64,000 bases of DNA from an uncultured Acetobacteraceae bacterium (lineage in GTDB: Bacteria; Pseudomonadota; Alphaproteobacteria; Acetobacterales; Acetobacteraceae), in the NCBI GenBank assembly GCA_937873095.1, contig CALMVI010000080.1, positions 20,857-84,856 on the forward strand. The letters run 5' to 3'. The notes beneath the pieces were generated by a model. The model was not told where the DNA came from, made no database searches, and saw nothing but the letters and a program-made list of their open reading frames with translations. Made by a program: the position numbers and the translations under genes. Shown in pieces: positions 42,371 through 58,483 of the stretch. Numbering within the stretch: the stretch's first letter is position 1; every line of letters starts with the position of its first letter.

Positions 42371-42389
42371 CTGACGGCAAGCTGACACC
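42371..42389 (-). promoter_or_regulatory. Direct-repeat box upstream of the phosphoesterase
   Basis: Read on the gene strand this is GTGTCAG, CTTG, CCGTCAG (from 42388 to 42371), again two heptamers with an 11-bp period and nearly the same letters as the box at 39433. It lies about 45-65 bases upstream of the ATG at 42325, a normal promoter position. A weaker PHO-like pair, CTGTCAC then CTGCAGA, lies further up at 42463-42480. Confidence 0.55.
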
Positions 42390-42485: not shown

Positions 42486-44174
42486 TTAAGAGTTTGGCGG
42501 GGCTGTCTCGCCCTCGCCCGTCGCCTCGTCGTCGAGCAGGGCTGCGAGCGGGCCGAGCCATGGACGATACCGCCGCCAGCGCTCGACCGCGTCGCGGTAG
42601 ATCGGCTGACGCGCCTGCCACCGGCTCGGCGTCCTGACCGCGCGCGCGTTCAGCTCGGGCCGCAGGCAGGCCGCATCCCAGGCCAGGCCGCAGGCGGCGA
42701 CGATGCGGCGTATCTCCGTTTCCGGCGCCCGGGTCAGCGCCTCGTAGCCGATCTCGACGAAGCGGCCTTCCGGCAGCACGCGGCGCCAATGCTCGGCCAG
42801 GCGGCGCATGCTGCGTATGGTGGCGACCAGCTCCGCCCCGCCGGTGGGAAAGGCGAGACGAGGGTTGAAGTGGGTCTGGTGGATGGACAGGGCGGTGTCG
42901 ACCGGCGCGCGGCGGCAATGGATGATGGTGGCGCCCGGACAGGCGAGGTGGACCAGCCCGGCCCAGAGCAGGTTGAACGGCATCTTGTCGGTCACCCGCG
43001 CCGCCCCCGGGCCGATCGCGCGCAGCAGCGCCAGGTACTCCGTCCCAGACCGGGCGAGGAAGGCCGGGTCGGACGCCGCATCGTCGTCCCGGTCCCAGGC
43101 GACCCCCCGCTCGTTCCAGAAACTCAGCTCGCCGCCTGCCCTCACCCCGGGGTGGCTGGAGAGTATCTGCTCGACCAGCGTGGTGCCGGACCGCGGCAGC
43201 CCCACGATCAGCACCGGCGCCGGGTCGTCCGCCCCCGGCCGCGCCGCGCCGGCCAGACGCTGCGCGGTGCAGCGGGCGATCATGCGCCCGACCTGGGCGT
43301 CGAAGGCGGCAGGGTCGAACGGCACGGCGAGGCGGCGCAGCGCGTCGGCGGCATCGAAGTGGCGCATCGCCGTTTCGGGGTCGCCCAGATCGTGGGCGGC
43401 CTTGCCCAGCGCCAGGTGGACACGCTGGCGTTGCCCGGAGTCCAGCCCGGGCACGGCCAGCGCACGCTCCATGCGCGCCGGCAGCCCCTCGTCCGCCGCG
43501 GTGATCCGCCGGCACCGGACCAGGTCGTAGTAGCTGCCGGCCATCAGCGGCGCCCGGGCGATGGCGCGCGCGAAGCACTCCTCCGCCTCGGCGAACCGGC
43601 CCGCTTCGGCAAGCAGGTTGCCGAGCAGGTCGAGCGCCATCGCATGGTCCGGCTCGAGCGCCAGCATGCGGCGCAGCGCGCGCTCGGCTTCGGCGTCCCT
43701 GTCCTCGGCGAGCAGCGCGCGCGCAGCGCCCAGCCTGCCGTAGCTGGTCTTCGGACCCGAGGAGGCGGCGCGCCGGAAACAGCCGGCCGCCTCCTCGCGG
43801 TGGCCCAGGGTGAAGACCAGTGCCCCTGCGCGGAACCATGCCTCGGTATGGGATGGCAGCAGGCCGGTGGCACGGTCATAGGCGAGGACGGCCGCACCGG
43901 CGTCGCCGGATTTTTCGAGGGCGACGCCCAGGCGGAACCAGGCATCGGTGAAGCGAGGGTTGACGCCGACCGCGCGGCGGAACGCGGCAACCGCTTCGGG
44001 CAGGCGGCCGACTTCCAGGCAGGCCAGGCCCAGGTCGTGATGGATGGCCGGATCCGCCGGCCGAACGAGTGCGGCCGCCTGCAAGGGGCCGATCGCCTCG
44101 CCAGGCCGTCCGGCCCGCAAGGCGGCGACGGCCTGCGCGAGCGTGCTTGCTGACGCGTGTCGGGGTGCGGGCAT
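42486..44174 (-). CDS. TPR-repeat protein with C-terminal sulfotransferase domain
   Basis: This is a 562-residue protein. Residues about 1-270 are tetratricopeptide repeats (for example HHDLGLACLEVGRLPEAVAA and AWFRLGVALEKSGDAGAAVL). The C-terminal half is a sulfotransferase: VLIVGLPRSGTTLVEQILSS is the PAPS 5'-phosphosulfate loop and ATIIHCRRAPVDTALSIHQT the 3'-phosphate-binding segment. Such TPR-sulfotransferases are common in alphaproteobacteria and are thought to sulfate proteins or glycans; few have been characterised. ATG 44174 has GGGGG about six bases upstream and starts only 13 bases after the XRE-cupin regulator stop, so it may be read from the regulator's promoter. Confidence 0.9.
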   Translation of the reverse strand: MPAPRHASASTLAQAVAALRAGRPGEAIGPLQAAALVRPADPAIHHDLGLACLEVGRLPEAVAAFRRAVGVNPRFTDAWFRLGVALEKSGDAGAAVLAYDRATGLLPSHTEAWFRAGALVFTLGHREEAAGCFRRAASSGPKTSYGRLGAARALLAEDRDAEAERALRRMLALEPDHAMALDLLGNLLAEAGRFAEAEECFARAIARAPLMAGSYYDLVRCRRITAADEGLPARMERALAVPGLDSGQRQRVHLALGKAAHDLGDPETAMRHFDAADALRRLAVPFDPAAFDAQVGRMIARCTAQRLAGAARPGADDPAPVLIVGLPRSGTTLVEQILSSHPGVRAGGELSFWNERGVAWDRDDDAASDPAFLARSGTEYLALLRAIGPGAARVTDKMPFNLLWAGLVHLACPGATIIHCRRAPVDTALSIHQTHFNPRLAFPTGGAELVATIRSMRRLAEHWRRVLPEGRFVEIGYEALTRAPETEIRRIVAACGLAWDAACLRPELNARAVRTPSRWQARQPIYRDAVERWRRYRPWLGPLAALLDDEATGEGETAPPNS

Positions 44175-44187
44175 CCGAACCCCCAGT

Positions 44188-44859
44188 TCACGAGGAACGC
44201 GGTCTTCGCCTGGCAAGTGCGGGAGCAGGTCTGGCGCGCGCCGCCTCGGCCTGCAGCGCCGCGTTGTCCAGCAGTTCCTCCTGCGTGGTGGAGCACACGC
44301 ACAGCGCGGTTGCCGCATCGCAGCCGTCCGCGAGGACGTAGGCGTGGCCCATCCGGCTGTCGATGTAGACCGCCTCGCCCTTGCCGAGGGTCACCGGGTC
44401 GTAGAATTCCGTGTGCACCACGACCGCGCCGTCCACGACGTAGATGAACTCCTGCCCGTCATGCCTGATCATGTCACCGAACTCCTCCAGCGAGTGGGCC
44501 TTCACCCGCGAGACGATGGGGATCATCTCCTTCCTGCGCAGTTCCGGCGAGAAGTAGTAGTAATCGTAGTTCGGCGTGGTGACGCAAAGCGCATTGACCA
44601 GGGTTGCCACGCTGCGCCGGCTGTTCGCCACGGCCTGCGCGGTCCCCTCCTGTTCGGCAAACAGCTCCGACATGCGGACCCCCAGGCGCTCGCTGATCGT
44701 CTGCAGCTTGTCGTAGGTGAGCGTGAGCCGGTCGTGTTCGACCTTCGACAGGGTGGAAAACGCGATGCCGGTCCGTTCGCTCATCTGTTTCAACGTCAGA
44801 CCGTGCCGGCCGCGCAAGGCGCGCATCAGCGATCCGAGGGTGGGTTTGCTCGCCTGCAC
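44188..44859 (-). CDS. XRE family regulator with C-terminal cupin
   Basis: This is a 223-residue regulator. An N-terminal XRE helix-turn-helix (LMRALRGRHGLTLKQMSERT, then GIAFSTLSKVEHDRLTLTYD) is followed by a cupin sensor domain (about 110-190: MIRHDGQEFIYVVDGAVVVH and the GKGEAVYIDSRMGHAYV segment). This class controls catabolism of amino acids, polyamines and related compounds. It is divergent from a TonB receptor that opens the D-glutamate/peptide locus, so it is the likely regulator of that locus. The start is GTG 44859 with AGGA eight bases upstream; the same bases contain a 13-base motif repeated near the receptor promoter, suggesting autoregulation. Confidence 0.92.
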   Translation of the reverse strand: MQASKPTLGSLMRALRGRHGLTLKQMSERTGIAFSTLSKVEHDRLTLTYDKLQTISERLGVRMSELFAEQEGTAQAVANSRRSVATLVNALCVTTPNYDYYYFSPELRRKEMIPIVSRVKAHSLEEFGDMIRHDGQEFIYVVDGAVVVHTEFYDPVTLGKGEAVYIDSRMGHAYVLADGCDAATALCVCSTTQEELLDNAALQAEAARARPAPALARRRPRSS

Positions 44860-44975
44860 TATCGCGTCCTGACTTTGTGACCGGCTGGGCGCGCGAACGG
44901 GGCGGGACGCGCCTGTCGCAGTGAACAGCGTCGCCGCGGTCTTTACAATCGACTGGCCCGGCCGGACCAGCGCTG

Positions 44976-45022
44976 CAGCAGACCGCGTTCAGGTGGAATC
45001 GCCTGAACGCGTGACCCTGCTC
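44976..45022. repeat. Palindromic repeat R3, copy 1
   Basis: Arms CGCGTTCAGG and CCTGAACGCG flank the centre TGGAATCG, with outer words GCAGCAG on the left and CTGCTC on the right. It is the first of three copies in 5 kb and lies in the gap between the XRE-cupin regulator and the TonB receptor. Confidence 0.8.
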
Positions 45023-45109
45023 GCCGAAGAAAGGGAACCTCCAGCCGCCGCTGCACGGACGCACAACGCATTAACCAGATTTGCCGAAACGCGTTGACTT
45101 TATCCTCAA

Positions 45110-45127
45110 CAGGACGATAGCGTCCTG
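45110..45127. promoter_or_regulatory. Palindrome over the receptor promoter, probable XRE operator
   Basis: CAGGACG (45110-45116), ATAG, CGTCCTG (45121-45127) is a perfect 7+7 inverted repeat overlapping the predicted -10 of the receptor promoter. The right half with flanks recurs at 44861-44873 over the regulator's own ribosome binding site. Confidence 0.55.
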
Positions 45128-45192
45128 ACCGGACTACCAAGCGCCGCCGATGCATCCTCGGGCGGAGGATCTCTGGCTGGAGGGGGGCTGGC

Positions 45193-47529
45193 ATGCAGCG
45201 CGTATCTGTACGTTCGTACGCCGCGGCCGCGATGGCCTCGCTTGCCGCGTCCGCCGCAGCGCAGACGCCGGCCGCATCGCCCTCGACGGCGCGCTCGACG
45301 AACTCGCCGAGCGGGCCGCTCGCAGATGCGCCCAACTCGAAGACCGTCGAGCAGATCGTCGTCACCGCCAACAAGCGGCGGGAGCTGCAGCGCCTGGTGG
45401 CCAACAGCGTCACCGCCATTTCGGGCCGCGACCTGGCGCGGCGGCAGGAGATCAGCCTCCAGGATCTCGCAGCACAGGTGCCCGGCCTGTCGCTCGAAGC
45501 CGACGACAAGACAGCGGTGCGCATCATCCTGCGCGGCCTCAACACCGGCAGCCCTGGCGCGACGGTGGCCACCGTGATCGACGACGTGCCGACCAACGCC
45601 ACCGGCGGGCAGACCGATGCGGCCGTCAACTCGCCGAACTACGACACCTATGACCTGCAAAGGATCGAGGTGCTGCGCGGGCCGCAGAGTTCGCTGTACG
45701 GCGCCACTGCGGAGGGTGGGCTGGTCAAATACGTGACCAACGCCCCCGATCCCACCGCCTATTCCGGGTCGCTGGAAGCCGGCATCAACGGCAGCACCGA
45801 CGGCGGCATCGGCGGTGCGTTGCGCGGCTTTGCCAACTTCCCGCTGCTGGACGGCAAGGCGGCGCTGCGCGTCAGCGCGTGGAACGACTGGTTCCCCGGC
45901 TACGTCGACGACCCCGAGCGCGGCAAGAGCAACGCCAACAGCGCCCAGCAATATGGCTGGCGCGCGTCCCTGCTGGTGACGCCGACCGCCGATCTCTCGA
46001 TCCGGCTGACGGCGGAACGACAGACGCTGATCAGCAACGACGCCGACGACATCCAGGTCGCCGGCGCGGCGCTGACGCCGACGGCCCCGCCCGCCAACCA
46101 GCTCGACATCCTGCACGGCCTGGTCAACACCACCGCGCTGCCGCAGCCGAGCCAGAACGAGTCAGGTGTCTACTACGGCAACCTCAACTACGATCTCGGC
46201 TGGGCCAGCCTCACCTCGCTGACCAGCTTCGCGTTCAACAACTTCCGCAGCCTGTTCGACTTCTCGAACCTCAACCTGGCGCCGGGCGTGACATACGCCA
46301 CCTACCTGCAACAGGCGGCGTATGGCGTGCCGCTCTATCTCGGCGAACGGCAGAACTCGAACGGCGACAAGTTCAACCAGGAGGTGCGCCTGGCCTCCGA
46401 CCCCGGCCTGCAGCTGCTGGGTCGCGACCTGAACTGGCTCGGCGGCTTCTACTACACGCATGAAAACACGTCGTTCCTGCAAGGCTACGACGCGCATAGC
46501 GCGGCCGACATCAACGACATCCTCACCCAGCCCTTGCCCGGCGGCCAGATCGCCCAATACAGCTCGCTGTCGGAATGGGCGGTCTTCGGCCAGGTCGACT
46601 ACACCATCCTGCCGCGGTTCGACGTGGCCCTTGGCGGCCGCTTCAGCGGCACCGCGCAGCGTGCGCAGACGATCAGCTTCAACGGCGCGCTCAGCGGCGC
46701 TGCCAAGGTCAACCCGGAACTTGGTTCCAACGATCACGACGCACTCTACTCCGTCGCTCCGCGCTGGCGGCCGACCGACGACACCGTGCTCTACGCGCGC
46801 ATCGCCACCGGCTATCGGCCCGGCGGCCCGAACATCCTGATCCCTGGCGTGACCACCGAGCCGCCGGCCTTCCAGCCGGACCACACCGTCAACTACGAGC
46901 TCGGCTGGCGGCAGGATTTCTTTGCCAAGTCGGTGACGGTGGACATCACCGGCTTCTACATCAACTGGCGCAACGTCCAGATACTCTCCGAATTCACCAC
47001 GCCCGAAGGCGTTTTCAGCGTGGACGGCAATGCCGGTGCCGCCGTCAGCAAGGGCGTGGAATGGAGCTTCAACTGGGTGCCGCTGTCCGGCCTGAAGCTG
47101 AGCGCGGTTGGCGACTACACCGACGCGCGGCTGACCGTGAACGCCCCGGGGCTGGGTGGTGCCGCAGGCGACTACCTGCCCTACGTGCCCGATGTCAGCA
47201 GCAGCGTGAACGTGGAGTACAGCTGGCCCGCTTTCGCCGATTTCGAAGCCTTCGTTTCCGGAACATGGAGCTACACCGGCAAGCGCTACAGCGGTTTCTC
47301 GGCCACGCCGAGTGTCGTCGTGTCGCACGCGCTGCTGCCGGGCTACAACACCGGCGCGCTGCGGGCAGGATTGGAAAACCGTCGCTACAGTCTCGAAGCG
47401 TTCGTCAACAACATCAGCGACGAACGCGGCATCACCTTCTACCAGAGCTATGGCGGCGCCAACCAGACCGGCCAGGCGACGATCATCCAGCCGCGCATCA
47501 TCGGTTTGACCGCGCGGGTGAAGTTCTAG
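45193..47529 (+). CDS. TonB-dependent receptor of the peptide/D-glutamate locus
   Basis: This is a 778-residue TonB-dependent receptor. The signal peptide (MQRVSVRSYAAAAMASLAAS to AAAQ) is followed by a Ser/Ala-rich linker and the plug start EQIVVTANKRRELQRLVANS, which may include the TonB box, then RGPQSSLYGATAEGGLVKYV. The barrel ends in GLTARVKF. A strong GGAGGGGGG site precedes ATG 45193. It is divergent from the XRE-cupin regulator and followed by a periplasmic serine hydrolase, DgcN, a permease, a peptidase and an epimerase, so its cargo is probably a peptide or glycopeptide containing D-amino acids. Its stop codon is the first base group of an R3 palindrome. Confidence 0.9.
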   Translation: MQRVSVRSYAAAAMASLAASAAAQTPAASPSTARSTNSPSGPLADAPNSKTVEQIVVTANKRRELQRLVANSVTAISGRDLARRQEISLQDLAAQVPGLSLEADDKTAVRIILRGLNTGSPGATVATVIDDVPTNATGGQTDAAVNSPNYDTYDLQRIEVLRGPQSSLYGATAEGGLVKYVTNAPDPTAYSGSLEAGINGSTDGGIGGALRGFANFPLLDGKAALRVSAWNDWFPGYVDDPERGKSNANSAQQYGWRASLLVTPTADLSIRLTAERQTLISNDADDIQVAGAALTPTAPPANQLDILHGLVNTTALPQPSQNESGVYYGNLNYDLGWASLTSLTSFAFNNFRSLFDFSNLNLAPGVTYATYLQQAAYGVPLYLGERQNSNGDKFNQEVRLASDPGLQLLGRDLNWLGGFYYTHENTSFLQGYDAHSAADINDILTQPLPGGQIAQYSSLSEWAVFGQVDYTILPRFDVALGGRFSGTAQRAQTISFNGALSGAAKVNPELGSNDHDALYSVAPRWRPTDDTVLYARIATGYRPGGPNILIPGVTTEPPAFQPDHTVNYELGWRQDFFAKSVTVDITGFYINWRNVQILSEFTTPEGVFSVDGNAGAAVSKGVEWSFNWVPLSGLKLSAVGDYTDARLTVNAPGLGGAAGDYLPYVPDVSSSVNVEYSWPAFADFEAFVSGTWSYTGKRYSGFSATPSVVVSHALLPGYNTGALRAGLENRRYSLEAFVNNISDERGITFYQSYGGANQTGQATIIQPRIIGLTARVKF

Positions 47530-47576
47530 AGCAGATCCCGGTCAGACGGAATCGTCTGATCGGGTAAAGGATGCTC
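47529..47576. repeat. Palindromic repeat R3, copy 2
   Basis: Arms CCCGGTCAGAC and GTCTGATCGGG flank GGAATC, with outer words GAGCAGAT and GGATGCTC. The arms differ from copies 1 and 3 on both sides yet still pair with one wobble. The element begins in the receptor stop codon. Confidence 0.85.
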
Positions 47577-47602
47577 GCAGCAGCTCGAAGGTGCGATCCG
47601 GT

Positions 47603-49669
47603 ATGGACAAGGCAAACGGCTCTCTCTTGAAAAGAATCAAGACGCTATCGTTCGTCACCCATGTTTGGCTGACAATTGCGGCAAGCGGCCTCACGCTGCT
47701 GAGCCCCTGCCTTGCACAGCAGACTCCCAGTCTGACGCCGCAAAGCCCCGCTTCGCCCACCTCCGTGTCTCCCGCCGTGCCGTCGGTGCAGCCGTCGCCC
47801 GCACAGCCCGCCCCGCTGCTGAGCAAGCAGGACCTGGACGCCTGGCTCGACGGCTACATGCCCTATGCGCTGGCGCGCGGCGACGTGGCCGGCGCCGTCG
47901 TGGTGGTGGTCAAGGACGGTCAGGTGCTGACCGAGAAAGGCTACGGATACGCCGACATGGCCGGCCAACGGCCGGTCGATCCGGAGACCACGCTGTTCCG
48001 GCCTGGCTCGGTGTCGAAACTGTTCACCTGGACAGCGGCGATGCAGATGGTCGAGGCGGGCAAGGTGAGCCTCGACCAGGACGTCAACACGTACCTCGAT
48101 TTCAGGATACCACCGTACCAGAGCCAGCCCGTCACCTTGCGGAACCTGATGACGCACACGGCGGGATTCGAGGAAACCAACAAGGAGCTGATCTTCGCCG
48201 AACCGGCGCCCGAGCCCAAGCTGGACGCCTATCTCAAAAGCCACCTGCCGGCGCGGATCTTTCCGCCCGGCCAGGTGCCCGCCTATTCGAACTATGGCGC
48301 GACGCTCGCCGGCTACATCGTGCAGCGCGTGTCGGGCGAGACGTTCGACGATTACATCGAGAGGCACATCTTCGCGCCGCTCGGCATGCAGCACGCAACC
48401 TTTCGCCAGCCGTTGCCGGCCGCGCTGAAGCCGCTGATGAGCAAGGGTTACGAAAAGGCGGACGGACCGGCCAAGACGCAGGAGGTGGTGGGGCCTGCGC
48501 CCGCCGGCAGCTCGGCCATCTCGGGCGGCGACATGGCGCGCTTCATGATCGCGCATCTGCAGGACGGCGAGTACAACGGCCAGCGCATCCTGCAGGCCGC
48601 GACCGCGCAGCTGATGCACAGCACGGCGCTGAACAACATCCCGCCGCTGAACAGCATGCTGCTCGGCTTCTACCAGATGAACCGCAACGGCCATCGCATC
48701 ATCGGCCATGGCGGCGACTCGCAGTGGTTCCACAGCGAACTGTCACTGTTCCTCGACGACCATGTCGGCATGTTCGTGTCGATGAACAGCGTCGGCGTCG
48801 ACGGGGCGGCCGGCCCGATCCGCCAGGCGCTGCGCGAAGCCATCACCGACCGCTACTTCCCCGGGCCGGAGCCACAGAAACCGCTGGACGCGGCAGCGGC
48901 GCGTTCGAACGGTGCAAAGCTTGCCGGCACCTTCGTCACGTCGCGGCGTGAGGAAACCAGCTTCTTCTCCCTGCTGTATTACCTGCTGGAGGCGGCGCCG
49001 GTCAGCGTCGGGGATGACGGGCGCCTGACGATCGGCGGCGAGAAGGGCCTGTCCGGCCAGCCACAGCATTTCGCGGCGGTGGCGCCGATGATGTGGCAGG
49101 GTCAGGGCGAGAAGACGCGATTGGCCGCCAGGCTCGCCAATGGCAGCGTGGCCGTCTGGGGCGACGACAACACGCCGTTCGAGGTGTTCATGCCGGTGCC
49201 GCTGGCCAAGGACGCCACCTGGCTGAAACCGGCGCTTTTCGCGTCCGTCGCGGCGTTGCTGCTGACCGCGCTGTTCTGGCCGGTGAACGCGCTGTATCGC
49301 CGGCGCTACGGCGCACAACTGACGTTGCGGGGCGCGCAGGCGGTCAGCTACCGCGTGACGCGGGTGGCCGCATTGCTGGACGCGGTGCTGATGATCGCCT
49401 GGCCGATCACCATGGTGGTGATGTTCCAGACCTTCGCGCTGAACGGCACATTCGATCCGCTGTTGACGGTGCTGCACTGGGCCACGATCGTGGTGTTTCC
49501 CTTGGCCCTGCTGGTGTTCCTCTGGAACGCCGTCGTGGTGTGGACCTCGCGGCCCGGTCTGCGCGGCCTGTTTGCGCGACTGTGGAGCCTGGTGCTGGTG
49601 CTGTCGGGAGTGGTGCTGGTGTGGACCGGAGCGGTCTTCCACCTCATCGGCACCGGGCTGACCTACTAG
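47603..49669 (+). CDS. Exported serine hydrolase (beta-lactamase fold) with C-terminal membrane helices
   Basis: This is a 688-residue protein. An N-terminal hydrophobic segment (VWLTIAASGLTLLSPCLAQQ) acts as a signal peptide, and a Pro/Ser/Gln-rich linker leads to a serine beta-lactamase-type domain with SVSK as the nucleophile motif and YSNYG as the tyrosine motif. The last ~160 residues hold about four membrane helices (KPALFASVAALLLTALFWPV and following), so the catalytic domain is anchored on the periplasmic face. Related enzymes include D-aminopeptidases and DD-peptidases, which suits a locus for D-amino-acid peptides. ATG 47603 is preferred over GTG 47591. The stop codon opens an R3 palindrome. 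Confidence 0.88.
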   Translation: MDKANGSLLKRIKTLSFVTHVWLTIAASGLTLLSPCLAQQTPSLTPQSPASPTSVSPAVPSVQPSPAQPAPLLSKQDLDAWLDGYMPYALARGDVAGAVVVVVKDGQVLTEKGYGYADMAGQRPVDPETTLFRPGSVSKLFTWTAAMQMVEAGKVSLDQDVNTYLDFRIPPYQSQPVTLRNLMTHTAGFEETNKELIFAEPAPEPKLDAYLKSHLPARIFPPGQVPAYSNYGATLAGYIVQRVSGETFDDYIERHIFAPLGMQHATFRQPLPAALKPLMSKGYEKADGPAKTQEVVGPAPAGSSAISGGDMARFMIAHLQDGEYNGQRILQAATAQLMHSTALNNIPPLNSMLLGFYQMNRNGHRIIGHGGDSQWFHSELSLFLDDHVGMFVSMNSVGVDGAAGPIRQALREAITDRYFPGPEPQKPLDAAAARSNGAKLAGTFVTSRREETSFFSLLYYLLEAAPVSVGDDGRLTIGGEKGLSGQPQHFAAVAPMMWQGQGEKTRLAARLANGSVAVWGDDNTPFEVFMPVPLAKDATWLKPALFASVAALLLTALFWPVNALYRRRYGAQLTLRGAQAVSYRVTRVAALLDAVLMIAWPITMVVMFQTFALNGTFDPLLTVLHWATIVVFPLALLVFLWNAVVVWTSRPGLRGLFARLWSLVLVLSGVVLVWTGAVFHLIGTGLTY

Positions 49670-49715
49670 AGCAGATCGCGTTCAGCTGGAATCACCTGAA
49701 CGCGTGAATCTGCTC
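49669..49715. repeat. Palindromic repeat R3, copy 3
   Basis: GAGCAGAT (49669-49676) and CGCGTTCAG (49677-49685) pair with CTGAACGCG (49696-49704) and ATCTGCTC (49708-49715), around the centre with GGAATCA. It begins in the stop codon of the serine hydrolase and ends 22 bases before the DgcN-type gene. Confidence 0.88.
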
Positions 49716-49736
49716 GCCGAAACAACGAGGTGGACC

Positions 49737-50861
49737 ATGACCGGTGAGCCGTTTCGAGCCGGTCATGGTCTGGGCGCCGGCGATGCAGCCGATCGCGACG
49801 GAGGCCCGCCGGCCCGCATGACAGACAAGCCGACCACCCGCGCCACCCTCCTGCCGCAGCCATACCTGCTGTTTCTCGGCGACAGCACGGAGGCCAGCTT
49901 CGCCAAGACGGCATTCGGCCTGTCGCACTGGGCGCCTGAGCGGTGCGTGGCGGAGTTCGCGCTGCCGGAGGCTACCGTCACCACCGGCTTGCCGTCGCTA
50001 TCGCCGGCGCAGGCCTATGCGGCGGGCGCGCGTGCTCTGGTGATCGGGGTGGCCAATGCCGGCGGCTACGTGCCGGATTGCTGGATACCGGCGCTGGTCG
50101 CCGCGTTGGAAGCGGGGCTCGACATCGTCAGCGGGATGCACACGAGGATCGGCAGCATCGACGTCGTGCTGGAAGCGGCGAACCGGCTCGGCCGGCGATT
50201 GTACGAACTGCGTGTGCCGCCGGACAACATCCCCGTGGCGACCGGCCGCAAACGCTCCGGCCGACGGCTGCTGACCGTCGGCACCGATTGCGCGCTGGGC
50301 AAGAAATACACGGCGCTGGCGCTGGCGCGCGCCTTCGCCGCGCGCGGCGTGCCGGCCGATTTTCGCGCGACCGGGCAGACCGGCATCCTGATTGCCGGTG
50401 GCGGCATTCCGATGGATGCGGTGGTGTCCGATTTCGAGGCGGGGGCGGCGGAGATGCTCAGCCCGGACGCGCCGCCCGACCATTGGGACGTGATCGAAGG
50501 GCAGGGCTCGATCTTTCATCCATCCTTCGCCGCCGTCTCGCTGGGGTTGCTGCACGGGAGCCAGCCGGACGTGATCGTGGTGTGCCACCAGCCCGGCCGG
50601 ACGACGATGGCGGGGATGCAGGGCTACGACGTGCCGAGCCTGGAGGAGACGGTGGAGCTGACGTTGCGCCTGGGCGGCCGGACGAACCCGGCGATACGCT
50701 GCGGCGGCATCAGCCTCAATACCGCGCATCTCGACCCCGACGCGAGCGCGCGCGTGCTGCGGGAGGCGACCGAGACGACCGGCCTGCCTGCGGCCGACCC
50801 GATCCGCCAGGGCCCGGCCTTCGAACGCCTGGTGGCGAGCTGCCTCGGCCTGCCGGCGTGA
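49737..50861 (+). CDS. dgcN: DgcN-type D-glutamate N-acetyltransferase (DUF1611)
   Basis: This is a 374-residue DUF1611 protein. The family start PYLLFLGDSTEASFAKTAFG appears at about residue 40, followed by GMHTRIGSI, the P-loop-like LLTVGTDCALGKKYTALALA, DFRATGQTGILIAGGGIPMD and DVIEGQGSIFHPSFA. DgcN acetylates D-glutamate, and the product is racemised by DgcA to N-acetyl-L-glutamate; a DgcA-type enzyme is present at 54122. ATG 49737 has GAGG six bases upstream. ATG 49818 would give the usual family N-terminus and may be the true start. It is coupled to the permease by a GTGA overlap. The family is secure; the D-Glu substrate is inferred from the pair. Confidence 0.85.
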   Translation: MTGEPFRAGHGLGAGDAADRDGGPPARMTDKPTTRATLLPQPYLLFLGDSTEASFAKTAFGLSHWAPERCVAEFALPEATVTTGLPSLSPAQAYAAGARALVIGVANAGGYVPDCWIPALVAALEAGLDIVSGMHTRIGSIDVVLEAANRLGRRLYELRVPPDNIPVATGRKRSGRRLLTVGTDCALGKKYTALALARAFAARGVPADFRATGQTGILIAGGGIPMDAVVSDFEAGAAEMLSPDAPPDHWDVIEGQGSIFHPSFAAVSLGLLHGSQPDVIVVCHQPGRTTMAGMQGYDVPSLEETVELTLRLGGRTNPAIRCGGISLNTAHLDPDASARVLREATETTGLPAADPIRQGPAFERLVASCLGLPA

Positions 50862-51973
50862 GCCAGCAGAGCACCTGGTTCCAGCGTTTCGTGCTGCCGG
50901 CGCTGGCGTTCAAGGCGGTGGTGATCGGCGGCGGCTACGCGACCGGCCGCGAGCTGGCCGAGTACTTCCTCCCGAGCGGACCGCGCGGCGGGCTACTTGG
51001 CATGGCGGTGGCCACCTGCGTCTGGAGCCTCGTCTGCGTTCTCACGTTCCTGTTCGCGCGCGCCACGGGAAGTGCTGACTACGACAGTTTCTTCCGCCAC
51101 CTGCTCGGCCGTTTCGGTGTCGGTTTCGAGGCGACCTATCTGCTGTTCCTGATCGTCCTGCTGGCGGTGTTTGGCGCTGCGGCGGGTGCGATCGGCTCGG
51201 CCGGTGTCGGCGCGCCGCCGCTTGCCGGCACGGTGCTGCTGATGGCGTCGATCGCCCTCGTGGCCGCCTATGGCAACAGCGCCGTGGAACGCCTGTTCGC
51301 ATACGTCTCCATCCTGCTCTACGCCACCTACGCGGTTTTCCTGTTGCTGTGCCTGGGCAGTTTCGGTGGCGCCATTGCCGGCGCCTATGCCAGCCATCCC
51401 GAGATCGGAGCCGGCTGGGCGGCGGGCGGCGTCACCTATGCCGGCTACAACGTGATCGGCGCGGTGATCATCCTGCCAGCGACACGGCACATGACCAGCG
51501 ACCGCGACGCGGTGGTCGCCGGGCTGCTGTGCGGGCCGCTGGCGATGCTTCCTGCCGCATTGTTCTTCGTGTGCATGGCGGCGTTCTACCCGGACATCGC
51601 GAACGCCACGCTGCCGTCCGACGTCCTTCTCCGCCATCTGCACGCGCCTGTGTTTCGTCTGGCCTTCCAGGCGATGATCTTTGCCGCATTGCTGGAATGC
51701 GGCACCGGCATGGTGCATGCGGTCAACGAACGCGTGTCGAAACGCTGGCGCGACGGCAGGACCGTGCGGCTGGCAACCACGCTGGCGCTGCTGGTGGTCT
51801 CGATCTTTCTGGCGGGGCAGTTCGGGCTGGTGACGCTGATCGCCCGGTTCTATCGCGTGTTGGCCTGGGTTTTCCTGGCGATTTACGTGCTGCCGGTGCT
51901 GACGCTTGGCGTGTGGCGGCTGCTTGTGTGGAGGAGGCAGAGTGATGCGAGGAAGCAAGCGGTTCTTTTTTGA
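50858..51973 (+). CDS. YkvI-type membrane permease
   Basis: This is a 371-residue integral membrane protein with about ten helices, of the YkvI group distantly related to amino-acid/sodium symporters of the LeuT fold. The N-terminal KAVVIGGGYATGRELAEYFL carries the unwound-helix glycine motif, and VTYAGYNVIGAVIILPATRH lies in the middle. The GTG start overlaps the dgcN stop. Placed between a D-glutamate acetyltransferase and a peptidase, it is a good candidate for D-glutamate or small-peptide uptake across the inner membrane. No YkvI protein has a firmly known substrate to my knowledge. Its final 29 bases overlap the peptidase gene start. Confidence 0.85.
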   Translation: MSQQSTWFQRFVLPALAFKAVVIGGGYATGRELAEYFLPSGPRGGLLGMAVATCVWSLVCVLTFLFARATGSADYDSFFRHLLGRFGVGFEATYLLFLIVLLAVFGAAAGAIGSAGVGAPPLAGTVLLMASIALVAAYGNSAVERLFAYVSILLYATYAVFLLLCLGSFGGAIAGAYASHPEIGAGWAAGGVTYAGYNVIGAVIILPATRHMTSDRDAVVAGLLCGPLAMLPAALFFVCMAAFYPDIANATLPSDVLLRHLHAPVFRLAFQAMIFAALLECGTGMVHAVNERVSKRWRDGRTVRLATTLALLVVSIFLAGQFGLVTLIARFYRVLAWVFLAIYVLPVLTLGVWRLLVWRRQSDARKQAVLF

Positions 51974-54125
51974 AAAAAAGAACCAAAAAACTTTGGCTGG
52001 CGCTGTCGCGGACTGGCCTGCCGACGCGCCTCGAGGAAAGAAGTCTTTCTTTGCGTTGCTTCTCTTGCCTGCGGTCGCGTTCGCCGAACCTCCGCACGAC
52101 TTCACCCTGCGGCAGGTGCTCAGCGCTCCCTTCCCCGCTGACCTGACCCCCGCCCCGCGCGGCGGCCGTGTCGCCTGGGTGTTCAACGACCAGGGCGCGC
52201 GCAACATCTGGGTGGCCGGAAACGGCCCCACCCACGCGGTCACCGCCTATACCGGCGACGACGGCGAGGATGCCGGCGACATCGCCTGGGCCGCGTCCGG
52301 CGACCAGCTGTTCTACACCCGCGGCGGCAATCTGGAGGGAGGTCCGCCGACCAACCCGATGAGCCTGGTGGGCGGCGCACCGCCCCAGGCGGTGTGGACG
52401 GTGAACCTGTCCGGGGGCGCGCCGCGCGAGGTGGGCCCGGGCCACGCGCCTGCGGCCTCGCCGAAGGGGGGCCACGTCGCCTACCTGTCCGGCGGGCAGG
52501 TCTGGATGGCGGCCGTGAACGGCGGCGCGCCCAGCCAGGCGGTGCACGACCGCGGCGAGGACAGCGCGCTCACCTGGTCGCCCGACGGAACGAAGCTTGC
52601 CTTTGTCAGCACGCGCACCGACCACAGCCTGGTCGGCGTCTACGATCTCGCCTCGCAGCGCCTCGTCTGGATGCAGCCGGGGCTGGACCAGGACCAGGCG
52701 CCGGAATGGTCGCCGGACGGGAAGCACCTGGCGTTCGTGCGGGTGCCGGCGGGGGTGCAGGTGGACTTCCTGGCCGACCGGCAGAACACGCCGTGGTCGA
52801 TCTGGGTGGCGGACCCGGCGAGCGGCCAGGGTCGGCGCGTCTGGGTGGCCGATCCTGGGCCGGGAAGCGTCTTCCACAACGTGTTGAACGGCCGCGCCCT
52901 GGTGTGGGCGCCCGGCGACCGGCTGGTGTTCCCGTGGGAGCGGACGGGGTGGGTGCACCTCTACGCCGTGCCGTTGGCGGGCGGCGCGCCGCAGGAGCTG
53001 ACCGGCGGCGGCGATTACGAGGTGTTCGACATCGCGCCCTCGGCCGACGGCGCACGCATCGCCTACTCGGCCAATGCCGGCGATGTGGACCACTGGCACC
53101 TGTGGGACGTCGCCACGTCCGGCGGGGCGCCGCGGCAGCTCACCGGCGGCGCCGGCAACGAAGACTATCCGGTGATCGCCAGCGACGGCGCGGTGATGGC
53201 CCTGCACGGCGACGCCCGCAACCCGCTGCGCCCGGTTTTGGTCAAGCAGGGCGCCATGGCGGACCTGGCACCCGGCACCATCCTTGCCGACTTCCCGGCG
53301 GCCAGGCTGGTGCAGCCGCAGCCGGTGGTGTTCAGCGCGCCGGACGGGTTGCGGGTGCACGGCCAGCTGTTCCTGCCACCGGCGGAACGATCCAGGCCGG
53401 GCCCGGCCGTGCTGTTCTTCCATGGCGGGCCGTATCGCCAGATGCTGCTCGGCTGGCACCCGATGGGTGCCTACAGCTTCATGTACGGGCTGAACCAGTA
53501 CCTCGCCAACGAGGGCTACGTGGTGCTGTCGGTGAACTACCGCGGCGGCATCGGTTACGGGCTGGACTTCCGCGAGCCGCCTGAGTTCGGCGCCGGCGGT
53601 GCGAGCGAGTTCAAGGATATCCTAGGCGGCGCCAACTACCTTCGCGGGCGGGCGGACGTGGACCCCAAGCGCATCGGCATCTGGGGTGGCAGCTATGGCG
53701 GGCTGATGACGGCGCTCGGCCTGTCACGCGCCTCCGACCTGCTGGCGGCCGGCGTCGACTATGCCGGCGTGCACGACTGGCGCGCGATGATGCCGGAGCT
53801 TGCCGGTCCCAACATGCCGCCGGGCGCGCCGCAGAGGGCCTTCGACTCCTCGGCGATGGCGACGATCGACCGCTGGCGCTCGCCGGTGCTGATCGTGCAC
53901 GCCGACGACGACCGCGATGTGGCGTTCGACCAGTCCGTCGAGCTGGCGCAGGCGCTGCGCCGCCGCGGCGTGGAGGTGGAGCAGCTGGTCCTGCCGGACG
54001 AGATCCACGTGATGCTGCGCGAGCGGTCCTGGCTCGCGTTCTTCGCCGCGGCGGACGACTTCTTTGCCCGCCACCTGATGCCGGCGACGCCGTCCGCCGG
54101 CGGGCTGCCCGCGACGCAGCGATGA
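51945..54125 (+). CDS. S9 family (prolyl oligopeptidase-type) peptidase, exported
   Basis: This is a 726-residue exported peptidase. An N-terminal beta-propeller (about 60-430, with repeated SPDGTKLAFVS and SPDGKHLAFV blades) is followed by an alpha/beta hydrolase domain with the nucleophile in GIWGGSYGGLMTA, the acid in HADDDRD and the histidine in PDEIHVML. A signal-like segment FFALLLLPAVAFA lies at about residues 35-47, after an N-terminal region encoded by the R2 repeat (RFFFEKKNQKTLA). ATG 51945 has GGAGG about ten bases upstream; TTG 52056 would remove the repeat-encoded part but has a poor ribosome site. It probably trims peptides in the periplasm before uptake. Confidence 0.88.
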   Translation: MRGSKRFFFEKKNQKTLAGAVADWPADAPRGKKSFFALLLLPAVAFAEPPHDFTLRQVLSAPFPADLTPAPRGGRVAWVFNDQGARNIWVAGNGPTHAVTAYTGDDGEDAGDIAWAASGDQLFYTRGGNLEGGPPTNPMSLVGGAPPQAVWTVNLSGGAPREVGPGHAPAASPKGGHVAYLSGGQVWMAAVNGGAPSQAVHDRGEDSALTWSPDGTKLAFVSTRTDHSLVGVYDLASQRLVWMQPGLDQDQAPEWSPDGKHLAFVRVPAGVQVDFLADRQNTPWSIWVADPASGQGRRVWVADPGPGSVFHNVLNGRALVWAPGDRLVFPWERTGWVHLYAVPLAGGAPQELTGGGDYEVFDIAPSADGARIAYSANAGDVDHWHLWDVATSGGAPRQLTGGAGNEDYPVIASDGAVMALHGDARNPLRPVLVKQGAMADLAPGTILADFPAARLVQPQPVVFSAPDGLRVHGQLFLPPAERSRPGPAVLFFHGGPYRQMLLGWHPMGAYSFMYGLNQYLANEGYVVLSVNYRGGIGYGLDFREPPEFGAGGASEFKDILGGANYLRGRADVDPKRIGIWGGSYGGLMTALGLSRASDLLAAGVDYAGVHDWRAMMPELAGPNMPPGAPQRAFDSSAMATIDRWRSPVLIVHADDDRDVAFDQSVELAQALRRRGVEVEQLVLPDEIHVMLRERSWLAFFAAADDFFARHLMPATPSAGGLPATQR
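51961..52013 (+). repeat. A/T-hairpin repeat R2, copy 1
   Basis: GGTTCTTTTTT (51961-51971) pairs with AAAAAAGAACC (51974-51984), followed by AAAAAACTTTGG and CGCTGTCGCGGAC. The same order is found at 55231-55282 on the other strand. It lies inside the 5' end of the S9 peptidase gene and overlaps the end of the permease gene. Its A/T content contrasts strongly with its surroundings. Confidence 0.88.
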
Positions 54126-55117
54126 GGCTGACGCTGGACGTGGGCGTGGAAGCGTGGCCGCTGGCGCAGCCGTTCCACATCACCGGCCACGTCTTCACCG
54201 CGTCAAGGGTGGTGGTGGTGCGTCTGGCGGACGGCATGCATGCGGGGCGAGGCGAGGCGTCGGGCGTCTATTACCAGGGAGATACGCCGGAGCGCATGCG
54301 GGCCGAGATCGAGGCAGTGCGGCCGCATGTGGAGGCCGGGCTGGACGGCGCGGCGCTGGCGGCACTGCTGCCGCCCGGCGGGGCGCGCAACGCGCTGGAT
54401 TGCGCGCTGTGGGACCTGCGCGCCCAGCAGGCCGGGCGTGCGGCGTGGGCGCTGGCCGGGCTCGACGCCGTGCACCCCTTGCTGACGACCTGCACCGTCA
54501 GCGCAGGGTCGCCGGACGAGATGGCCCGCGGGGCGCTGGCCTTTCACGGCGCGCGCGCGATCAAGCTGAAGCTGATCGGCGACGGCGATGACCGGGCGCG
54601 GGTGATGGCGGTGCGGCATGTGTGCCCGGATGTGTTCCTGGCCGTGGATGCCAACCAGGGCTTCACCCGGGACACGCTGGACGCGCTGTGGCCGGCGCTG
54701 CTGGCGTGCCGGGTGGCGCTGGTGGAGCAGCCGTTCCGCGTGGGCGAGGAACACCTGCTGGACGGCTACGAGCGGCCGATCCCGATCGCTGCGGACGAAA
54801 CCGCACAGGCCCTGGCGGACCTGCCCGCGCTGGCCGGCCGTTTCGACGTGGTGAACATCAAGCTGGACAAGAGCGGCGGCCTGACCGAGGGGCTGCAGAT
54901 GGCGCACCGGGCGAAGGAACTCGGCCTGCGCGTGATGGTCGGCAACATGGTGGGCACTTCGCTGGCGATGGCGCCGGCCTTTGTGCTCGGCCAGCTCTGC
55001 GACGTCGTGGATCTGGACGGTCCACTGTTCCTGTCGGAGGATCGACGGCCGGGCGTGCGCTACGCGGACGGGATGATGTCTCTGCCTGAGGCTTTCTGGG
55101 GTGGTGTTGCGGTCTAG
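54122..55117 (+). CDS. dgcA: Enolase-superfamily epimerase, DgcA / dipeptide epimerase type
   Basis: This is a 331-residue muconate-lactonising-type enolase-superfamily enzyme. The catalytic lysine pair is IKLKLIGDGDD (about residue 145), metal ligands follow in VDANQGFT, VEQPF and ADET, and the second catalytic lysine is in NIKLDKSGGLTEGL. These are the hallmarks of L-Ala-D/L-Glu dipeptide epimerases and of DgcA, the N-acetyl-D-glutamate racemase. Presence of a DgcN homologue 4 kb upstream in the same operon favours DgcA; dipeptide epimerase is the alternative and would serve the same peptidoglycan-recycling purpose. The ATG overlaps the peptidase stop. Confidence 0.85.
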   Translation: MRLTLDVGVEAWPLAQPFHITGHVFTASRVVVVRLADGMHAGRGEASGVYYQGDTPERMRAEIEAVRPHVEAGLDGAALAALLPPGGARNALDCALWDLRAQQAGRAAWALAGLDAVHPLLTTCTVSAGSPDEMARGALAFHGARAIKLKLIGDGDDRARVMAVRHVCPDVFLAVDANQGFTRDTLDALWPALLACRVALVEQPFRVGEEHLLDGYERPIPIAADETAQALADLPALAGRFDVVNIKLDKSGGLTEGLQMAHRAKELGLRVMVGNMVGTSLAMAPAFVLGQLCDVVDLDGPLFLSEDRRPGVRYADGMMSLPEAFWGGVAV

Positions 55118-55172
55118 AAGTAAACGCCTGCTTATATCAACCCGGGTTGAGAGTGACACATAGAAAGCAACA

Positions 55173-55220
55173 GTCCTTTTTGCAAAAAGGACCAAAAAAC
55201 GTTTGCTCCCTGTCGGCGAC
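55173..55220 (+). repeat. A/T-hairpin repeat R2, copy 2
   Basis: GTCCTTTTT (55173-55181) pairs with AAAAAGGAC (55184-55192), followed by CAAAAAACGTTTG and CCTGTCGGCGAC. The order matches copy 1, with both stem arms changed together. It faces copy 3 head to head ten bases away. Confidence 0.85.
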
Positions 55221-55230
55221 TCAACAACAA

Positions 55231-55282
55231 GTCCGCGACAGCGTTGTCCAAAGTTTTTTGCTTCTTTTTTTCAAAAAAGAAG
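55231..55282 (-). repeat. A/T-hairpin repeat R2, copy 3
   Basis: On the minus strand: CTTCTTTTTT and AAAAAAGAAG form the stem, then CAAAAAACTTTGG and CGCTGTCGCGGAC, nearly identical to copy 1. With copy 2 it forms an inverted pair filling the gap between the convergent epimerase and serine hydrolase genes, and may terminate both. No gene is seen in the remainder of this 243-base gap. Confidence 0.87.
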
Positions 55283-55360
55283 GCCTTTCGTGCTTGCTAA
55301 GAGTCAAGCTCAAGGCGGGCTGGTATTAAACCGTCGCGGGCGTCGGGCGAAATGCCTGCC

Positions 55361-56956
55361 CTATCCACCATCTTTCTGGAACGCCAGATCCTGATAGTCC
55401 CAGCTGAAATCGGCCAGCGGTGAGACAGCCTTCATCGTCGCGCCATACACCCTGCCGTTCCTGACGCTGAACGCCACGGTGGCGTTCTCGATCGTCGGAT
55501 CGGTCCAGTTCGTGCGGAACGCGTTGCCCGAGACGGCGGAGAGTTCGCCTTCCATGCCCGGCGAACGGTCGAAACGGATGCGCAGCCTGCCGTTCTGCGG
55601 CAGCGAGATCGTCATCGCGCCGTACCAGGGATCCCGGTAGGTGCCCGCGTAGTCCGCCGGTGCCAGCGATGGCCCGGCGCCGTTTTCGATGCGTGGGTTC
55701 GGCAACGCCTTGAGCAGGGCTTCGGCTTTCGCGATGGAGGCGTCCTGCGCGCGGCGGATGATGGCGATCCAGTCGGTGGGCGGCAGGCCCAGATAATGGT
55801 CCAGCAGGTGGAACATCACGGCGCGGCGTGCGCCCGCATCCTCGGAATTGATGTCCACCGCCAGGCCGACATGCGCGTCCGGGATGAGGTAGAGCATGGA
55901 GACGCCGCCCAGCACGCCGCCCGCATGTTCCACCAGCAGGTGGCCGTGGTACGATTCGACGAACCAGCCGAGGGCGTAATCCTGCAGGTCCGGCCGCATC
56001 GCCTCCATGCCCGCGGGCAACGCCAGCTCGGTCCCGGGCACCACGACGACGGGGCTCCACATCTCGGCCGCCTGTTGCGCGCTGAAGATGCGCGTGCCGT
56101 CCGCCGCCCGCCCGCCGTCGAGCTGCAGCCGCATCCATTGCGCAAGGTCGGCAGCGCTGGCGTTGATGCCGCCGGCCGGCGCGGTCGCAACAGCATCGAG
56201 CCCCCTGGCAAGCACGCCTTGCGCACCCGTGCCGCGGATCGGGCCCGCGGTTCGGGCGTGCAGTGCCACGGCGTTGGCTGCGGCTGCGTCGTAGGTGGGA
56301 TGGGCATCCCGCATGCCGGCGGGAGCCAGGACGTGCTCGGTGACGAAGGACTCCCAGCTTTGGCCCGACACCGTCTCGACCAGCAGACCGGCGACGACGT
56401 AGAGGATGTTGTCGTAGGCGAAGGACTCGCGGAAACCGGTGGCGGGCTTCAGGTAGCGCAGCGCGTGCAGCATGTCGGCGCGGCTGCGGTTGGTGCTGGG
56501 CAGGAACATCAGGTCGCCCTCGCCGAGGCCCAGGCCGCTGCGGTGGGTGAGCAGGTCGCGCACCGTCATCTGCGCCGTGGCGTAGGGATCGTACATCCGG
56601 AAGCCCGGCAGCCTGTCGACGACGCGGTCGTCCCACGAGAGCTTGTGCTGATCGACCAGGATGGCCAGGCAGGCGGCGGTAAACGCTTTCGTCTCCGAGC
56701 CGATCGGGAACGCGGTGTGCTCGTCCACCGGCTTGCCGGACCGGATGTCGCGCACGCCGAACCCGCGGGCGAGCGTGGTCTTGCCGTCCTCGACGATGGC
56801 GACCGACATGCCCGGTGCACCGAAGGTCTGCATCGCCTGCGCCACGTAGCGATCGATGTCACCCGGCGGCGCCGCTTCAGCATGTGGCGCGAACCCGCAG
56901 GCGGCGGCGGATGCCAGCAGGACCAGGACGCGAGCGACGGACGGATCATGTTGCAT
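55361..56956 (-). CDS. Exported serine hydrolase, beta-lactamase class C fold
   Basis: This is a 531-residue secreted hydrolase. A signal peptide (ARVLVLLASAAACGFAPHAE) is followed by the beta-lactamase-type domain with SETK as the nucleophile motif (about residue 85) and a YDN tyrosine motif (FAYDNILYVVAG). The last ~120 residues form a separate C-terminal domain with PADYAGTYRDPWYGAMTI, the DUF3471-type lipocalin-like module found behind many such hydrolases. The start at 56956 is chosen because it opens the signal peptide; the frame continues upstream only as an antisense shadow of carA. It is convergent with the peptide locus and could belong to it as a D-amino-acid peptidase or esterase. 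Confidence 0.87.
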   Translation of the reverse strand: MQHDPSVARVLVLLASAAACGFAPHAEAAPPGDIDRYVAQAMQTFGAPGMSVAIVEDGKTTLARGFGVRDIRSGKPVDEHTAFPIGSETKAFTAACLAILVDQHKLSWDDRVVDRLPGFRMYDPYATAQMTVRDLLTHRSGLGLGEGDLMFLPSTNRSRADMLHALRYLKPATGFRESFAYDNILYVVAGLLVETVSGQSWESFVTEHVLAPAGMRDAHPTYDAAAANAVALHARTAGPIRGTGAQGVLARGLDAVATAPAGGINASAADLAQWMRLQLDGGRAADGTRIFSAQQAAEMWSPVVVVPGTELALPAGMEAMRPDLQDYALGWFVESYHGHLLVEHAGGVLGGVSMLYLIPDAHVGLAVDINSEDAGARRAVMFHLLDHYLGLPPTDWIAIIRRAQDASIAKAEALLKALPNPRIENGAGPSLAPADYAGTYRDPWYGAMTISLPQNGRLRIRFDRSPGMEGELSAVSGNAFRTNWTDPTIENATVAFSVRNGRVYGATMKAVSPLADFSWDYQDLAFQKDGG

Positions 56957-57089: not shown

Positions 57090-57130
57090 TGAGTATTGCT
57101 CCGGGAAATTCGTTCCCATATGGCTGGCCC

Positions 57131-58483
57131 ATGGCGATGCTTGTGGACGAGGTCATCGACCGGCTCGGCGGGCAGGATGCGGCGGCCCGGCTGACCGGCG
57201 TCGGCGTGGAGGCGGTGCGCAAGTGGCGCCAGGCCCGCGCGGTGCCGCCCAGGCACTGGGCGGCTGTCATCGCGGCAACCGGGCTGACCATGGCCGACCT
57301 GCAGGGGGACGCGCCGGCGGCCGATGTGCCGCCTGGCGCCACCGCCTGCCTGGTGCTGGCCGACGGCACGGTCCTGTGGGGACGCGGCTTTGGCGCCCGC
57401 ACCGATGCGGCCGCGCCGGCGGTGGGGGAGCTGTGCTTCAACACCGGCATGACCGGCTACCAGGAGACGCTGACCGACCCGTCTTACGCCGGCCAGATCA
57501 TCGCCTTCACCTTCCCGCATATCGGCAACGTCGGCGCCAACCCGGCCGACAGTGAGGCCGCGACGGTTGCCGCACGCGGCCTGGTCACGCGCGAGGACGT
57601 GACCGAGCCGTCCAACTGGCGCGCCGCCCAAAGCCTGGACGGCTGGATGCGCGCCCGGTCCATACCGGGCCTGGCGGGCGTGGACACGCGTGCCCTGACG
57701 ATACGCATACGCGACGGCGGCCCGCCGCATGGGGTGCTGAGCTTTCCAGCAGACGGACGGTTCGACCTGGCCGCGCTGCAGGCGCACGCGGCGGCCTGGC
57801 CGGGGCTGGACGGCATGGATCTGGCGCGCGAGGTGAGCTGCACGCAGAGCTTCGCGTGGGACGAAGGCGTGTGGGCCTGGCCGGACGGTTTTGCCCGGCA
57901 GACGGCGCCCGCCCACCACGTGGTCGCCGTCGATTACGGCGCCAAGCGCAACATCTTCCGCAGTCTGGCCTCCGCCGGCTGCCGCCTGACCGTCGTTCCT
58001 GCCGCCAGCACGTCCGAGGACATCCTGCGCCACCGCCCGGACGGCGTGTTCCTCAGCAACGGCCCAGGCGACCCGGCGGCGACAGGACGCTACGCCGTGC
58101 CGGCCATACAGGGCGTGCTGGCCGCAGGGGTTCCGGTGTTCGGCATCTGCCTCGGCCACCAGCTGCTAGCCCTGGCGCTGGGTGCCAGAACCTACAAGCT
58201 CGAGCGCGGGCATCACGGCGCCAACCAGCCGGTGCGCGACCTCGCCACCGGCCGGGTGGAGATCACCTCGCAGAACCACGGCTTCGCCGTCGACGACGCC
58301 TCCCTGCCGGACGGCGTGCGCGTCACCCATGTGAGCCTGTTCGACGGCAGCAACGAGGGGATCGCGTGCGAGGCCAGGCGCGCGTTTTCGGTGCAGTACC
58401 ATCCCGAAGCCAGCCCGGGCCCGAGCGACAGCGCGCATCTGTTCGGTCGCTTCACCGCGCTGATGGCGTCGTCGCGCGGGTAG
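57131..58483 (+). CDS. carA: Carbamoyl-phosphate synthase small subunit with N-terminal HTH extension
   Basis: This is the 450-residue glutaminase subunit that supplies ammonia to CarB for arginine and pyrimidine synthesis. The standard CarA body starts near residue 65 (ACLVLADGTVLWGRGFGA) and includes GELCFNTGMTGYQETLTDP. The class I amidotransferase domain has its nucleophile in FGICLGHQLLALALG and its His-Glu pair in VQYHPEASPGP. The extra N-terminal ~60 residues (RLGGQDAAARLTGVGVEAVR, then KWRQARAVPPRHW) look like a Cro/YdaS-type helix-turn-helix, not part of the usual ~380-residue protein. carB is not in the window, so the subunits are not adjacent downstream. Confidence 0.93.
   Translation: MAMLVDEVIDRLGGQDAAARLTGVGVEAVRKWRQARAVPPRHWAAVIAATGLTMADLQGDAPAADVPPGATACLVLADGTVLWGRGFGARTDAAAPAVGELCFNTGMTGYQETLTDPSYAGQIIAFTFPHIGNVGANPADSEAATVAARGLVTREDVTEPSNWRAAQSLDGWMRARSIPGLAGVDTRALTIRIRDGGPPHGVLSFPADGRFDLAALQAHAAAWPGLDGMDLAREVSCTQSFAWDEGVWAWPDGFARQTAPAHHVVAVDYGAKRNIFRSLASAGCRLTVVPAASTSEDILRHRPDGVFLSNGPGDPAATGRYAVPAIQGVLAAGVPVFGICLGHQLLALALGARTYKLERGHHGANQPVRDLATGRVEITSQNHGFAVDDASLPDGVRVTHVSLFDGSNEGIACEARRAFSVQYHPEASPGPSDSAHLFGRFTALMASSRG

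Follow-up and report, generated by a model that had tools for sequence, protein, structure and literature searches.

A 64,000-nucleotide stretch of DNA from an uncultured Acetobacteraceae bacterium, referred to below as the window, carries an operon of six plus-strand genes (45193-55117) that encode a TonB-dependent receptor, an exported serine hydrolase (SerHyd1), a DgcN-like N-acetyltransferase, a permease, an S9-family peptidase and a DgcA-like racemase, flanked by genes for an XRE-cupin regulator and a second serine hydrolase (SerHyd2). This is probably a regulated operon through which small extracellular peptides containing D-glutamate (D-Glu), or a closely related D-amino acid, for instance D-glutamine (D-Gln), are used as a source of carbon and nitrogen. 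The cluster is a co-regulated set common to scores of soil and water bacteria, most likely serving the uptake and use of D-Glu peptides. D-amino-acid peptides from dead cell walls make up a large store of organic nitrogen that is broken down slowly. A bolder proposal, to which we give somewhat less than even chances, is that the set represents a widespread, undescribed XRE-cupin regulon, with a conserved operator as its mark, in which outer-membrane uptake, periplasmic D-peptidases and an importer from an uncharacterised LeuT-fold family are joined to a DgcN-DgcA pair with a new N-acyl-D-amino-acid racemase specificity. Gene content, conserved linkage, a shared DNA motif, intact catalytic motifs and a predicted transporter fold are directly established.

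The linkage of these genes recurs far beyond the window. A search of one genome per species (84,980 species) recovered 80 loci with DgcN relatives, about 67 of which are of the window type. Their carriers are Sphingomonadales, Xanthomonadales and Steroidobacter-type genomes, with a small number of others. Of the 51 window-type loci whose flanks are complete, 44 contain SerHyd1, 42 DgcA, 39 the permease, 31 a TonB receptor and 27 SerHyd2; an XRE-cupin homologue (at least 50% identity) is present in 38 and stands divergent to SerHyd1 in 33 of these. All six other core genes accompany DgcN in 18/51 loci, and at least five do so in 32/51. Ten canonical DgcN loci scored in the same way have DgcA only (40-46%) and none of the other core genes (0/10), a contrast with Fisher p <=0.0015 for each gene. 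The loci are mutually related, so that the counts overstate their independence; two classes are spanned nonetheless, and the recurrence of the gene set exceeds chance. The gene order differs between the window and its relatives, in which the commonest arrangement is a divergent XRE-cupin gene followed by SerHyd1, DgcA, a POT or M19 gene, the TonB receptor, DgcN, the permease, SerHyd2 and M19. Two plasmid copies annotated by NCBI show this same order, labelled as serine hydrolase, dipeptide epimerase, peptide MFS transporter, TonB receptor, DUF1611, hypothetical protein and dipeptidase; the cluster is therefore also plasmid-borne.

DgcN of any type occurs in 8 of 200 other genomes of the window's own family, and only one of these eight (G132) carries the window type, as judged by score and identity. 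This rarity suggests that the locus was acquired horizontally. In the same-genus genomes compared for an empty site, the contigs stop at carA, and no relatives of the cluster were found in the viral contigs searched. PADLOC gave no match on the locus, and there is therefore no sign of a role in defence. As a separate observation, some Sphingobium/Sphingomonas-type genomes carry two window-type DgcN copies close together (L012, L017, L042, L057), two of them (L012 and L017) with two DgcA copies as well; such duplication may reflect substrate diversification.

Regulation links the window to these relatives. In a gapped-word count over 43 intergenic regions flanking the XRE-cupin gene, TTGA-N13-AGGA was present in 31, compared with 9 for the top word in shuffled sequence. 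The motif has the consensus TTGACAATTTTCTAATCAGGATCATTATGTCC, consisting of a -35-like hexamer followed by the dyad AGGA-N8-TCC(T/C). When the window sequence was left out of the matrix, the best match in the window fell at 45094-45127, scoring 15.3 bits against a maximum of 3.9 in 50 shuffles. This match ends 66 bases upstream of the receptor start, and the motif pattern has its single occurrence in the whole host genome at this place. The window operon is thus a member of the same regulon as its relatives despite the different gene order. Additional copies of the motif in relatives precede M19, TonB or DgcN genes, and we infer that the XRE-cupin protein is its binder.

At the centre of the operon are DgcN and DgcA, each the sole copy in the host genome. 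DgcN carries both DUF1611 domains at full length (PF07755 2.3e-70, PF17396 5e-17) and aligns with 7xrj over 323 residues, and its acetylation of D-Glu is predicted from this family-level match. DgcA retains the racemase residues of the enolase superfamily, namely KxK, the D-E-D metal ligands, the second Lys and DxD. The published D-Glu pathway comprises the activities EC 2.3.1.312 and EC 5.1.1.25 (PMC11747546; PMC12363236). ArgJ, a user of intermediates of the N-acetylglutamate pathway, is also encoded in the host genome, in which no N-acyl-D-Glu deacylase scored above cut-off.

The exported enzymes are intact at their catalytic sites. SerHyd1 contains S140xxK143, Y232xN and H373xG followed by four predicted C-terminal hydrophobic transmembrane segments, and the class-C motifs are preserved in SerHyd1, SerHyd2 and every homologue examined. 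The S9 peptidase has a GGSYG motif and no Glu-Glu pair. In Stenotrophomonas clusters a class-A beta-lactamase-like gene (243.6 bits, cut-off 200) was observed between DgcN and the permease (L065:10999-12003, L068, L070, L077); it may be a D-peptidase of the pathway rather than a resistance gene.

The permease, described as YkvI-type in the original prediction, matches no Pfam or NCBIfam family. Its AlphaFold2 model (pLDDT 93.7) superposes on y+LAT1 with Z 29.1 over 348 of 371 residues (root-mean-square deviation 3.3) and also matches LAT1, MhsT, ApcT, AdiC and AgcS, with CodB, CHT1 and Nramp matching almost equally well. By this model, the protein is a LeuT/APC-fold amino-acid-transporter type over its whole chain. 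An amino-acid substrate is suggested because most of the fold matches carry amino acids, a fold being no proof of substrate and silent on chirality.

Optional partners in the relatives belong to families that act on dipeptides or D-amino-acid amides: M19 membrane dipeptidases in 30/51 window-type loci, POT di/tripeptide symporters in 16/51 and D-aminoacylase-like amidohydrolases of the PRK09061 type, a model which we take to describe D-glutamate deacylases, in 23/51. Xaa-Pro dipeptidase-like enzymes and an ELFV amino-acid dehydrogenase also recur, and none of these partners is present at the window locus. With 13 open reading frames (ORFs) left over, nearly every gene within the clusters is accounted for. 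Together with the linkage in dozens of genomes and the shared motif, the partners strengthen the original prediction of a dedicated scavenging locus for D-Glu peptides. Muropeptides, which it had also named as substrates, find no support: a Pfam scan of the window genes and of the recurrent and leftover genes of the relatives, rather than of every single ORF, recognised no gamma-D-Glu-diaminopimelate (DAP) endopeptidase, LD-carboxypeptidase, amidase or glycosidase/NagZ. The lack of a recognised DAP- or glycan-cleaving enzyme argues for small peptides over whole muropeptides.

The POT symporters, which adjoin DgcA in several loci, raise the question of whether X-D-Glu is imported whole and converted by the DgcA-like enzyme to X-L-Glu, with DgcN serving for stray D-Glu only. 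The DgcA-like enzyme retains the DxD motif of dipeptide epimerases, and NCBI automatically labels it "dipeptide epimerase". Canonical DgcAs carry DxD too, however, the window locus has no POT gene, and the match to the L-Ala-D/L-Glu epimerase model PRK15129 (239.2 bits, cut-off 343) falls far under the score to DgcA, which makes this dipeptide route a rather improbable one.

For the favoured reading, the uptake and use of small D-Glu peptides, a sequence of steps can be proposed from protein families and gene linkage. The TonB receptor would carry the peptide over the outer membrane, and the membrane-tethered, exported class-C-type hydrolases would trim it in the periplasm with the S9 peptidase (M19 in relatives) to D-Glu or an X-D-Glu dipeptide. 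Import of the product would fall to the LeuT-fold permease, which in some relatives is accompanied or substituted by a POT dipeptide symporter. DgcN would then acetylate free D-Glu using acetyl-CoA, and the DgcA-like enzyme would invert the N-acyl-D-amino acid at its alpha-carbon. The product, N-acetyl-L-Glu, would enter arginine metabolism or be deacetylated, while the XRE-cupin regulator would sense a pathway metabolite and bind the conserved dyad upstream of the receptor gene.

Several points weigh against this reading. The substrates of all the cluster proteins are predicted ones; esterases and beta-lactamases share the class-C fold; and PRK09061-type amidohydrolases lie near 4/10 canonical DgcN loci too, and hence are not specific. 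The S9 peptidase is a minority variant, found in 5/51 relatives, and TonB receptors diverge strongly between loci (28-63%), so the peptide taken up by the window's host may differ from that of its relatives. DgcN scores 439.5 bits against an equivalog cut-off of 480 for NF041892, and seven other window-type DgcNs score 439-462; two of the three canonical DgcNs tested miss the cut-off as well (462-468), and the score alone is therefore no proof of a different or new function. DgcA scores 379.3 bits against a cut-off of 400 for NF042940, with six other window-type DgcAs at 342-384, whereas three of four canonical DgcAs tested reach 437-487 and the fourth 376.5. In a quick tree, a branch with SH-aLRT 79 has the 54 window-type DgcAs on the same side. 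All 54 have Gly at the position equivalent to R24 of Bacillus subtilis YkfB in the 20s capping loop, where characterised dipeptide epimerases, like most DgcAs, carry an Arg (position 22 in 14/17 canonical DgcA partners); additionally, the window type has Phe at 25 and Tyr at 50, each in 52/54. In the YkfB complex, R24 is presumably in contact with the side chain of glutamate. On that assumption, substrate recognition in the window clade is different, which is the main reason for not simply assuming the published reaction, and the recognised side chain may not be that of glutamate. The conversion of D-Glu to N-acetyl-L-Glu by DgcN and DgcA, as originally proposed, thus holds at the level of family, with both proteins below their equivalog cut-offs and the Arg lost throughout.

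The same residues, together with the position of every window-type DgcA tested below the DgcA cut-off, would suit scavenging of another D-residue, in which the substrate of the racemase would be N-acetyl-D-Gln, D-isoglutamine, D-Asp/D-Asn or some other N-acyl-D-amino acid, and that of DgcN the matching free D-amino acid. The DgcNs of the same clusters show few subfamily-specific changes, however, with only four such columns and no known substrate site linked to any of them, and the side-chain role of R24 is an assumption on our part. We consider this version unlikely. If the favoured reading is right, G22, F25 and Y50 offer three clear residues for probing racemase substrate choice.

The variability of the TonB receptors, along with the lack of a recognised peptidoglycan-specific enzyme in the clusters and the presence of Sphingosinicella microcystinivorans (L020) among the carriers, might also indicate a specific D-Glu natural product, such as microcystin/nodularin fragments, poly-gamma-glutamate, or lasso or other secondary peptides, instead of general cell-wall peptides. 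The carriers nevertheless belong to two classes of Proteobacteria and occupy many habitats. In the flanks, including those beside L020 and L087, an inspection that included no sequence search for mlr recognised no mlr-like gene. The microcystin genome paper on Sphingopyxis USTB-05 names no such cluster and mentions D-Glu only via mur and gdh genes. The S9 peptidase was also considered as an Atxe2 lasso-peptide isopeptidase and rejected, at 81.8 bits against a cut-off of 400 for NF033523. A natural-product substrate is accordingly regarded as very improbable.

All genes named in the original prediction are present as open frames, with profile matches for the XRE-cupin, TonB, hydrolase, DgcN, S9 and DgcA proteins at the places indicated (Table 1), in a host genome of 3.69 Mb (99.8% complete, 162 contigs); the G+C content of the window is 69.7%. 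The head-to-tail order then described applies to the six middle genes, the XRE-cupin and SerHyd2 genes lying on the minus strand. The overlapping codons are likewise confirmed in part, with 4 bp shared by DgcN and the permease and 4 bp by S9 and DgcA. For DgcN, the ATG start was chosen.

Table 1. Features of the receptor, DgcN and DgcA locus in the window
Feature	Position	Strand	Evidence or remark
XRE-cupin transcriptional regulator	44188..44859	-	HTH_3 8.2e-10, Cupin_2 4.4e-9; divergent from operon
Conserved promoter/operator motif TTGACTTTATCCTCAACAGGACGATAGCGTCCTG	45094..45127	+	matrix match 15.3 bits
TonB-dependent receptor	45193..47529	+	PF00593 1.6e-30, PF07715 1.4e-18
SerHyd1, exported class-C-fold serine hydrolase, C-terminal membrane segments	47591..49669	+	PF00144 8.4e-64
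DgcN-like D-amino-acid N-acetyltransferase (DUF1611), predicted	49818..50861	+	NF041892 439.5 bits; 7xrj 1.3e-99
LeuT-fold permease, predicted	50858..51973	+	AlphaFold2 pLDDT 93.7; y+LAT1 Z 29.1 over 348 residues
S9-family serine peptidase, exported	~51945..54125	+	PF00326 5.2e-38, DPPIV_N 2.5e-15
DgcA-like enolase-superfamily racemase/epimerase, predicted	54122..55117	+	NF042940 379.3 bits
SerHyd2, second exported class-C-fold serine hydrolase	55361..56956	-	PF00144 1.1e-65, DUF3471; convergent
Dispersed hairpin repeat at permease/S9 junction	51962..51993	+	25 genome copies, <=3 mismatches

The third overlap, of 29 bp between the permease and S9 genes, lies inside a dispersed repeat. Two hairpin repeat families invade the locus. 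The hairpin repeat GTTCTTTTTTGAAAAAAAGAACCAAAAAACTT occurs at 51962-51993 (+) and 55251-55282 (-), and its genome copies differ by compensating base pairs in the arms (GGTTC/GAACC, GGTCC/GGACC, GCTTC/GAAGC). The former copy supplies the stop codon of the permease and the first codons of S9, so the overlap is incidental and gives no evidence of designed coupling; the S9 relatives are without the repeat-derived N-terminal extension. The palindromic repeat TTCAGNNGGAATCNNCTGAA, with 19 exact genome copies, is found ahead of the receptor gene (44977-45028) and on both sides of SerHyd1 (47516-47568, 49656-49721). A dispersed repeat also separates SerHyd2 from the operon, and an Rfam scan of the window returned nothing.

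Some neighbouring genes were noted as well. The product of carA (57098-58480, +) has about 80 extra N-terminal residues ahead of the CPSase domain, with the Pfam match starting at residue 85; by eye, this extension resembles a small Cro/YdaS-type helix-turn-helix, and the G132 homologue aligns from residue 11. On the other side, a gene for a PF04185 phosphoesterase whose N-terminal part is long (39560-42388, -) adjoins a TPR-sulfotransferase gene (42486-44318, -).

In the open-access literature, no description was found of the full arrangement, the regulon motif, the divergent racemase clade or the permease. The reactions are known in outline, and what is new, as far as that literature shows, is the assembly together with these three elements. 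If the reading is right, DgcN, the permease and SerHyd1 behind one operator would serve as a marker for organisms that use D-amino-acid peptides, and a first role would be proposed for a permease family lacking a Pfam model.

Several known systems share parts of this locus. The serine hydrolases have the fold and the SxxK/YxN/HxG motifs of S12/class-C D-peptidases such as alkaline D-peptidase, D-aminopeptidase and ClbP, with remote similarity only (alkaline D-peptidase 4.1e-21, ClbP 3.7e-13); ClbP, like SerHyd1, is anchored in the membrane at its C-terminus. Over its full length the permease model superposes on the LeuT/APC transporters MhsT, ApcT, AdiC, LAT1 and y+LAT1 (Z 27-29), but at 8-15% identity it forms a family of its own without a Pfam model. 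In the DgcN-DgcA pathway, a homologous N-acetyltransferase and enolase-superfamily racemase are likewise encoded together, and their catalytic residues are kept here; the canonical loci examined contain this pair but lack the receptor, the hydrolases, the LeuT-fold permease and the XRE-cupin gene, whereas the window-type proteins fall under both equivalog cut-offs and differ in the DgcA capping loops. The ycjG locus of E. coli and the ykfB locus of B. subtilis (PMC5808125) also link an enolase-superfamily epimerase to peptidases for cell-wall D-Glu peptides. Compared with them, the window cluster has no recognised D-Glu-DAP endopeptidase and has lost the R24 equivalent, and it adds DgcN, a TonB receptor, class-C hydrolases and a LeuT-fold permease.

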